This document shows, one piece after another, positions 9,701-12,370 of a DNA stretch of 64,000 bases; position 1 is the first letter of the stretch, and each line of letters starts with the position of its first letter. The position numbers and the translations under genes are program-made. Under the pieces are notes generated by a model, which saw only the letters and a list, made by a program, of their open reading frames with translations, searched no databases and was not told the DNA's origin. This stretch comes from an uncultured Alphaproteobacteria bacterium (GTDB lineage Bacteria; Pseudomonadota; Alphaproteobacteria; HIMB59; GCA-002718135), in assembly GCA_902553005.1 (NCBI GenBank), contig CACDIK010000002.1, forward strand, positions 1 through 64,000, in the 5' to 3' direction.

Positions 9701-9769
9701 TGGCCTCTTTTAGTATATCTTATGCAAATAGTTAAGAAAGTTTAGACAAAGTTAGAACCTTTTTAAAAT

Positions 9770-10306
9770 ATGGAAAAAATACATTTAACCAACTTAATGA
9801 AAAGAATTCAAAAAGACCGCGACGAATTGGCTTTCTCTGAAATTTTCGATTTTTTTGCCCCAAAAGTTAATGCTTATTTTATTCAAAATAATATCAAATT
9901 TGAAAGCTCTGAAGAGTTAACGCAGGAGGTTTTGAGCACTGTTTGGGTAAAATCAAATCTGTATGAACCAGAAAAATCCGCTCTTTCTACATGGATTTTT
10001 ACTATTGCAAGAAACAAAAAGATAGACTTTTACAGGAAAAATTCAAAGATAGATTTCAGAGAAGAAGACATAAGGGACTTTTTATACCAAGATAAAGAAG
10101 TTGATCCAGTTGAGGAAATCGAGACAAACAAACAAATTGAACAAATAAATAATCAATTAAATGAACAACAGAAAATAATGATAAAAATGAATTTTTTTGA
10201 GAACAAAAGTCATAAAAAAATTGCCGAAGAGCTTGAAATTCCTCTTGGGACAGTTAAATCTAAAATAAGGCATATTTTGAAAAATGTGCAGAAAATGTTA
10301 GTATGA
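9770..10306 (+). CDS. ECF-family RNA polymerase sigma factor (RpoE/ECF11-like)
   Basis: 178 residues. Sigma region 2 includes EELTQEVLSTVWVKSN and STWIFTIARNKKIDFYRK; region 4 includes NEQQKIMIKMNFFENKSHKKIAEELEIPLGTVKSKIR, a helix-turn-helix. The TWIFTIARN stretch resembles the Rhodobacter RpoE/ECF11 group, whose partner is a ChrR cupin anti-sigma; such a gene follows here with a 4-bp ATGA overlap. In that group the regulon responds to singlet oxygen and organic hydroperoxides. I did not find a TGATCC-type RpoE promoter upstream of the gene. Confidence 0.92.
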   Translation: MEKIHLTNLMKRIQKDRDELAFSEIFDFFAPKVNAYFIQNNIKFESSEELTQEVLSTVWVKSNLYEPEKSALSTWIFTIARNKKIDFYRKNSKIDFREEDIRDFLYQDKEVDPVEEIETNKQIEQINNQLNEQQKIMIKMNFFENKSHKKIAEELEIPLGTVKSKIRHILKNVQKMLV

Positions 10307-10932
10307 ATGGAACAGTAGTAAAAAACCAACTTATTTTTGATTTTGCATCCGGAGTTCTTGGACCTGCAAAATCGATTTTTGCATCAACTTATTTACAATT
10401 AAACTCAAGCGCCTCAAGAATGAGTAATACTTTTGAAGGCATACTTGGGGACAATCTAATGAATAATGTAGATATTGCGCCTAAAAGTTTAAAATATTCA
10501 GATTGCATAAATAATGACATTATAAAAGCTGAACATCCAGTTAAAAATCCGATTACTACTTTTTTTGGCGATTTAAATAATTTAAATTGGAAACAAGTTT
10601 ATAAAGGTTTTAGAGAATTCACCGCCTTAATTGAAGATAAAGATGAGTTAAAATTAATAAAAATGGACCCAGGAGTTTCCGTGCCACTTCACTCACATGG
10701 AGGTAAAGAATACATACTGGTTTTAGAAGGTAGCTTTCGAGATGAACATGGCGAATATTCAAAAGGTGATATACAAATAAATGATCAGAAAATAAAACAT
10801 ACACCTATAGCATCAAAAGATACTGGGTGTGTATGTCTAAGCATTACTGAAAAAGATGTGATCTTCTTTGGTAAGTACGGATCTTTCTTAAACTTATTTA
10901 CATTTATTAAATCTTTTTTTAAGCAAAAATAA
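10303..10932 (+). CDS. chrR: ChrR-like cupin anti-sigma factor lacking the zinc-binding anti-sigma ligands
   Basis: 209 residues. The N-terminal part (residues 8-60, QLIFDFASGVLGPAKSIFAS onward) aligns with the ChrR anti-sigma domain, but the H-x3-C-x2-C zinc ligands are replaced by Y30, N34 and A37, and the early His is also absent. The C-terminal cupin keeps all four metal ligands with ChrR spacing: H130, H132, E136 (PLHSHGGKE) and H166 (KHTP). It overlaps the sigma gene by ATGA. It likely restrains the sigma factor until an oxidative signal, but zinc-independent binding would be needed. The alignment to ChrR is from memory of the family. Confidence 0.85.
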   Translation: MNGTVVKNQLIFDFASGVLGPAKSIFASTYLQLNSSASRMSNTFEGILGDNLMNNVDIAPKSLKYSDCINNDIIKAEHPVKNPITTFFGDLNNLNWKQVYKGFREFTALIEDKDELKLIKMDPGVSVPLHSHGGKEYILVLEGSFRDEHGEYSKGDIQINDQKIKHTPIASKDTGCVCLSITEKDVIFFGKYGSFLNLFTFIKSFFKQK

Positions 10933-10950
10933 TTTCATTATAGTATAACG

Positions 10951-11952
10951 TTGAACGTGACCAAAATTCACGTTGATTTCATCAGAGGTAAAAGAATTGA
11001 GAGTACCCATCATATTAAAGCATTAGTAACAAACGCTGATGGTAAAATTTTATTATCAACAAATAATGATAACGATTTTTTTTTCCCTCGATCTTCAATT
11101 AAAATATTTCAAGCTATTCCTTTTGCAATGTCAGGAGCGATCAAAAAATATAAATTAAATTCAAAACATATAGCTTTATCCTGCGCTTCTCACAAAGGAG
11201 AGATATTTCATATAAGTGAACTACAAAAATGGATTTCAAAAATAAACTTAAAAATAAAAAATTTAAAATGCGGTGTTCATGGACCATTAGATAAAACGGC
11301 TTCAGAAAAAATAATTTATTCTGGAAAAAAATTTAATGAGTTACATAACAATTGTGCTGGCAAACACTTAGCTATGTTAACAAGTTGCTTGGATAATAAT
11401 CATAGCATCGAAAATTATTTAGATTTCAATCATCCTCATCAAAAGAATATTAGAAAAGTTTTCAATAAATTCACAGAAACGAAATTATCAAAAAAAAATT
11501 TCTCATTAGATGGTTGCAGTGCTCCACAATATTCATTCCAAATAAAATCAATATCTAAAGCCTTAAATAATTTAATTAAATGTTATAATAGTGATCTTGA
11601 ATATTCAATAGCAGCAAGAATACTAATTGATTCGACTTTAAAATATCCAAATTACATTGGAGGAACAAAAAGCTTTGATACTAAAGTGATTGATTCTTCA
11701 AAAAGTAAAATATTTTGTAAACATGGTGCTGAAGGTGTTTTTTTGTTTGCTCATTTGAAAAAGGGAATAAGTGGAGTAGTTAAAGTAACAGATGGTAATG
11801 AAAGAGCAATACCAATAACTATAATGAATATTTTTAAGAAATTAAATATAATTAATAAAAGTGAATTAAGAAACTTACAAAGAAAGGAAGAATTTTATCT
11901 AAAAAATCATGCAGAAAAGAAGATTGGGTTTATTAACTGTAAGATAATATAA
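10951..11952 (+). CDS. Asparaginase II family protein (alphaproteobacterial/Rhizobium type)
   Basis: 333 residues from a TTG start (a GTG two codons later is an alternative). It shows the family blocks FFPRSSIKIFQAIPFA, LSCASHKGE...H, CGVHGPL, NNCAGKHLAML and DGCSAPQYS. The family is the Rhizobium-type L-asparaginase, unrelated to the E. coli periplasmic enzyme and without a signal peptide, hydrolysing asparagine to aspartate in the cytoplasm. It lies 18 bp after the chrR-like gene, so read-through from the sigma operon is possible. Its 3' end overlaps the convergent DUF3429 gene by 20 bp. Confidence 0.88.
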   Translation: MNVTKIHVDFIRGKRIESTHHIKALVTNADGKILLSTNNDNDFFFPRSSIKIFQAIPFAMSGAIKKYKLNSKHIALSCASHKGEIFHISELQKWISKINLKIKNLKCGVHGPLDKTASEKIIYSGKKFNELHNNCAGKHLAMLTSCLDNNHSIENYLDFNHPHQKNIRKVFNKFTETKLSKKNFSLDGCSAPQYSFQIKSISKALNNLIKCYNSDLEYSIAARILIDSTLKYPNYIGGTKSFDTKVIDSSKSKIFCKHGAEGVFLFAHLKKGISGVVKVTDGNERAIPITIMNIFKKLNIINKSELRNLQRKEEFYLKNHAEKKIGFINCKII

Positions 11953-12370
11953 GTAACAAAAACATACCAATCAATATTGTTAATGGCAGTCTTAGAAAAT
12001 AGAAGGCACTTTTATTTAATTCGTTAGAAAATATAATAATGTAGTCAAAAAATAATTGTGTTAACAACAGCAGAATTATTAAAATAAATATTATTAAAAT
12101 ATTAATATTATAAAGGTTTAATATTATAATAATAACTGAAAATAGACTTGGTAGAAAACCATAAACTACAATATATGTGGGTGGATTATTTTTTAAATTC
12201 CAGTTAATTGATCCAATAAAAACTATGATTATTAAACTGTAATAAGTAATAAAATTGAGCAAAATCTCTTCTTCAATTTTCAAAAAAAAATATTTATCTA
12301 AAAATACTATAGCGTATGGTATTAAACCAAAATATGAAATTAGGAATTGTATATTAATTTTTTTGAACAT
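11933..12370 (-). CDS. DUF3429-like small membrane protein
   Basis: 145 residues with four to five hydrophobic segments. The start INIQFLISYFGLIPYAIVFL and the segment YYSLIIIVFIGSINWNL match the DUF3429 pattern of a YLGLiPF-like helix and a FxGxxxW turn. Function is unknown. It overlaps the asparaginase end tail-to-tail and is divergent from the fructosamine-kinase-like gene by 5 bp. Confidence 0.6.
   Translation of the reverse strand: MFKKINIQFLISYFGLIPYAIVFLDKYFFLKIEEEILLNFITYYSLIIIVFIGSINWNLKNNPPTYIVVYGFLPSLFSVIIIILNLYNINILIIFILIILLLLTQLFFDYIIIFSNELNKSAFYFLRLPLTILIGMFLLLILSYS

Follow-up and report, generated by a model that had tools for sequence, protein, structure and literature searches.

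The window, the 64,000-nucleotide stretch of DNA analysed here, encodes an ECF sigma factor and a ChrR-type anti-sigma factor that lacks the zinc ligands of its anti-sigma domain (ASD) and keeps those of its cupin. We favour the reading, with a probability of roughly 0.7, that this is a working ECF11-type sigma/ChrR pair whose ASD no longer uses zinc and whose signal would pass through the cupin.

The sigma factor ORF (9770–10306, + strand, 178 aa) and the ChrR-type ORF (10303–10932, + strand, 209 aa) have 4 bp in common (ATGA), as the first-pass annotation had stated. The sigma protein matched Sigma70_r2 and r4_2 and is of the ECF11/RpoE type; its best PDB match was SigE of R. sphaeroides (2q1z_A, E = 1.6e-32), with the next best at only 2e-9. 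The downstream protein matched Cupin_7 (the ChrR cupin, PF12973, E = 1.7e-14) and aligned with R. sphaeroides ChrR (2z2s_B, E = 3.7e-19) over residues 7–187 on 8–198. It scored 112.2 bits against TIGR02451, slightly below the curated cut-off of 124.5, which is a model threshold and not a functional feature. Because of the Cupin_7 match, the near-threshold TIGR02451 score, the near-full ChrR alignment and a sigma factor far closer to SigE than to other solved ECF sigmas, the pair is, on these sequence matches, of the ECF11/ChrR kind. Two marks of ECF11-type ChrR family membership were found, a Cupin_7 domain with an H-x-H-x3-E...H site and a co-encoded ECF11 sigma factor. Throughout the genus loci the sigma gene adjoins ChrR and, with few exceptions, overlaps it by 4 bp.

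In R. sphaeroides ChrR (2z2s/2q1z, ECF11/AS11), the ASD zinc is held by His6, His31, Cys35 and Cys38, and the cupin metal by His141, His143, Glu147 and His177 (PMC6852236). The ASD helices H1–H3 of the window protein (aa 3–48, 10309–10446) carry V6 (10318–10320), Y30 (10390–10392), N34 (10402–10404) and A37 (10411–10413) at these four ASD columns, and the ZAS motif H/C-x24/25-H-x3-C-x2-C is absent. The first-pass annotation had named Y30, N34, A37 and a missing early His; its residue numbers were right, and the early position is V6. Residues 1–50 contain no Cys or His at all, so the ligands have not just shifted. A site elsewhere in the domain was ruled out, as the ASD helices of the scored genus loci lack Cys, and the sole N-terminal Cys flagged (locus L217) lies before the start codon. 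The cupin domain (aa 91–185, 10573–10857) retains H130 (10690), H132 (10696), E136 (10708) and H166 (10798), with a spacing (HxHx3E-x29-H) identical to that of ChrR, again as first annotated, and this pattern was intact in all 76 related loci scored.

The window protein thus resembles R. sphaeroides ChrR in domain order, exact cupin spacing, the C-x-C after the cupin (here C176-x-C178, in the cupin region), its operon with an ECF11 sigma and a related tail motif. It differs in lacking the H6/H31/C35/C38 site, in overall identity (about 27%) and in a helix IV that is short or unresolved in the model and carries Cys68. The conserved C-terminal tail, GKYGSFLNLFTFIKSFF (10858–10929; dN/dS 0.033), is an extended version of the family tail L-T-G-x-x-G-R-L-L-N-P-F seen in other members.

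The ligand loss is fixed in the clade. The genus comprises marine single-cell genomes (AG- and AH- isolates), and by these names we place it in AEGEAN-169, within the HIMB59 order; AEGEAN-169 and HIMB59 have been handled as synonyms (PMC10308909). The motif Y-x3-N-x2-A was present in 77 of 77 genus loci (74 of 74 by a stricter count), and in a sister HIMB59 family the zinc ligands were absent in 13 of 13 proteins, with an intact cupin and a shorter N-terminus. These counts answer in the affirmative whether the loss is clade-wide, as the first-pass annotation had asked. Among 38 genus members, pairwise dN/dS was lowest in the cupin (0.031), followed by the ASD (0.083), sigma (0.10) and the linker (0.19), and core positions of the ASD were invariant across the genus loci. 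The ASD is therefore under purifying selection, and clade-wide ligand loss, an intact cupin and low dN/dS together identify a maintained gene. A single decayed copy was ruled out by the shared motif and the low dN/dS of the ASD.

At the sequence level, loss of the ASD zinc site is not special to the HIMB59 order. A class-wide sample of 289 genomes yielded 111 ChrR-family proteins outside the order; H31/C35/C38 were kept in 82 and absent in 29, including a frame-broken copy (L154), and the cupin ligands were kept in 110. For Alphaproteobacteria outside the order, the motif was absent in 28 of 109 ChrR-family proteins, about a quarter. A second, phylum-wide sample added 86 proteins, of which 25 of 50 from Alphaproteobacteria and 0 of 36 from other classes lacked the motif; the 25 of 50 is not a rate, because this set was partly chosen from low scorers. 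The cupin site was kept in all 86, giving 196 of 197 proteins over both samples outside the order. A 213-protein tree, built with the ligand columns left out and poorly supported at depth, has 19 changes in the state of the zinc motif, at least 6 of them forced by strongly supported branches. A share of true ChrR proteins is thus overlooked by the zinc motif and by the TIGR02451 cut-off.

The tightest comparison comes from one family, f24. In four of its proteins (L276, L282, L285 and L287) Cys35 is replaced by S or N and Cys38 by A or V; their HHCC relatives are at 54–59% identity. Some f24 members have only the two Cys replaced (H-H-S-A, H-H-N-A), with near relatives at 59% identity that are HHCC. 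The family also contains L034, L036 and L043, which the tree places with R. sphaeroides ChrR. His31 is often retained in zinc-less proteins. Of 24 Cys35 replacements in the first set, 17 were to S, T, D or N (background 18.7%), often as S/D/N-P-x-x-R; in the second set 11 of 25 were, and another 10 were to K or R. We rejected a helix N-cap in place of Cys35 as a rule; because the second set was weaker and the counts are uncorrected for relatedness, it is a tendency. The reverse case also occurs: one protein (L068, genome G316) keeps the HHCC zinc motif and has lost the cupin metal ligands. Zinc-less ChrR genes with no neighbouring sigma gene were seen at loci L072, L075, L076, L094, L097, L098, L100 and L152.

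What would hold the ASD together in the window protein? An AlphaFold model, built from a 12-sequence alignment (mean pLDDT 66.9), has helices at residues 3–16, 21–33 and 35–48, followed by the cupin. In a Foldseek search with this model six ChrR chains came out on top (E = 7.5e-14 to 8.6e-09), the best being 2q1z ChrR (E = 7.5e-14, 180 columns), to which the predicted ASD helices 1–3 were matched. The model does not resolve helix IV, the sigma2-binding element of ChrR, since pLDDT for residues 44–80 is below 50. Helices 2 and 3 are separated by a single non-helical residue, N34, which therefore stands where a helix N-cap would be. On our preferred reading, ordinary side-chain contacts would hold the three-helix bundle together in place of zinc: Y30 would put an aromatic ring where ChrR has His31, N34 would serve as a helix N-cap in the position of Cys35, and A37 would leave a small side chain in that of Cys38. 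Such a metal-free fold would be reached much as in RseA, which has a ChrR-like ASD fold without zinc (PMC6852236). The first-pass suggestion of a zinc-free anti-sigma fold thus gains support from the clade-wide loss, the purifying selection, the predicted helices and the sigma gene that is always adjacent in the genus.

The domain might instead be losing its function, with sigma bound weakly or not at all and either constitutive or otherwise controlled, and with the cupin kept for a separate role. ASD zinc is needed to inhibit sigma-E in R. sphaeroides (PMC6852236), and in V. cholerae ChrR the first Cys is needed, the second is not, and a C33S variant is constitutively open (PMC11976125); ligands essential in both proteins are absent here. 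In the sister family the N-terminus is truncated and the model lacks helix 1, has no clear helix 3 and shows a helix where helix IV is expected; on the strength of the first two features, its ASD may be eroding. Outside the order an adjacent sigma gene was missing for 8 of 28 zinc-less copies compared to 9 of 81 zinc-keeping copies, uncorrected for relatedness. However, an ASD with a dN/dS of 0.08 and invariant core positions, next to a sigma gene that it nearly always overlaps, speaks against decay in the genus, and we consider loss of function unlikely.

It is less likely still that sensing has moved to Cys68 (10504–10506), which would replace the zinc thiolates as the redox group at the place of helix IV, the element that grips sigma2. 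The anti-sigma domain has no other Cys, this candidate sensor is invariant in 77 of 77 genus loci, and a cysteine of V. cholerae ChrR is reported to be important in sensing (PMC11976125). However, the sister family has no Cys at this position, and conservation of the cupin can by itself account for sensing.

Zinc economy, with an oligotroph short of metal giving up the site to reduce its zinc demand, is the motive proposed by the first-pass annotation and very improbable as a general reason: the HIMB59-type clade is streamlined and oceanic and zinc-less copies trend weakly to smaller genomes (median 3.6 versus 4.2 Mb; p = 0.03 without phylogenetic correction), but loss is common in 3–6 Mb genomes (for 19 of 28 zinc-less copies the genome is at least 3 Mb), 9 zinc-keeping copies are in genomes below 2.6 Mb, small genomes such as G250 (1.6 Mb, L077) and G070 (1.8 Mb, L074) retain HHCC, and the cupin metal site stays in zinc-less copies.

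We therefore return to a working pair with a metal-free ASD. The ASD site has disappeared again and again, the cupin site hardly ever, which suggests that ASD zinc is a replaceable structural support and that the cupin carries the signal. Our best inference, in line with the first-pass annotation, is that signalling runs wholly via the cupin. The zinc-free ASD would keep the sigma factor inactive, and photo-oxidative stress, in the form of singlet oxygen or organic hydroperoxides, would be read by the metal-bound cupin; ChrR would then be lost and sigma released. Free sigma would then turn on its own operon and probably also an operon encoding photolyase, amine oxidase, DUF1365 and CFA synthase. 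The natural loss pattern is no proof that the zinc-less proteins answer the same signal. Against the preferred reading stand the zinc requirement of R. sphaeroides ChrR, the open C33S variant of V. cholerae, the modest AlphaFold model, the reduced ASD of the sister family and the failure to find a promoter common to the sigma gene and the photolyase operon.

These proteins bear on a disputed question. The singlet-oxygen sensor of ChrR has been placed in zinc-thiolate oxidation (PMC6432622), in the cupin (PMC4960319) and in a sensing Cys (PMC11976125). To respond to 1O2, R. sphaeroides ChrR requires E147 and H177 of its cupin (PMC6852236), and in the C11H variant of RsrA, giving an HHCC-type ZAS, oxidative zinc loss fails to release sigma (PMC4960319). 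The repeated disappearance of the zinc site is in effect a natural experiment on which half of the protein detects light-driven oxidative damage, and with the near-invariant cupin it provides ready-made test proteins, including the f24 members. The broader proposal, that in the HIMB59 order and several other alphaproteobacterial lineages the ASD is metal-free and photo-oxidative stress is read by the cupin alone (or with Cys68), with zinc thiolates uninvolved, we put at slightly under even odds. If true, this broader proposal would contradict oxidation of the ASD zinc thiolates as a required step of singlet-oxygen sensing in the family.

Zinc-free ASDs are known in general. About 44% of all class I anti-sigma domains, and 28% of soluble ones, lack Hx3Cx2C (PMC7406223). 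RseA of E. coli and RskA of M. tuberculosis are zinc-independent class I proteins that, on our reading, share with the window protein an ASD fold without metal; they differ from it in being membrane-bound, in having no cupin and in sequence, which is not close. Like the ChrR family, groups AS19-1 and AS27 combine zinc and non-zinc members in one phylogenetic group; the text that names them does not name the ChrR group, AS11, and does not discuss a cupin partner (PMC7406223). Loss of the zinc ligands among ChrR-group proteins that keep their cupin site is apparently undescribed, as no description was found in the literature searched, of which coverage was partial.

The presumed target operon is carried by the HIMB59 order and encodes a photolyase (phr), an FAD amine oxidase, DUF1365, CFA synthase and DUF2878; in the sister family DUF3833 takes the place of DUF2878. 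DUF1365 was found in 51 of 61 relatives, most misses being incomplete genomes. The phr, amine oxidase, DUF1365 and CFA synthase genes are of the kinds that make up the core sigma-E/ChrR (ECF11) regulon. This regulon includes genes for furan fatty acid synthesis, which are required for ChrR turnover (PMC6852236). The photolyase and furan-fatty-acid-type genes form one apparent operon in both families (L244:2810-8007, L248:3971-9126).

Upstream of the sigma gene, a conserved block, TTTTAGTATATCTTAYRCAAWTAGTTAAG (9708–9736, + strand), is probably its promoter region; it is also found upstream of sigma in near relatives and is single-copy in its own genome. No clear motif or promoter common to the sigma gene and the phr operon was found, and because we found no block like 9708–9736 upstream of the operon, its control by sigma is something we infer. 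The block, about 30 bp, is nearly invariant in one genus subgroup, and another subgroup carries a conserved block of its own, TTATTATACCATTC...AAGTTTAAGAT. The same intergenic region is shared by a divergent gene for an IalB-like protein (PF06776; 9227–9700, − strand). Close to the sigma/ChrR operon, 11933–12370 (− strand) encodes a small membrane protein that matches DUF3429 below threshold.
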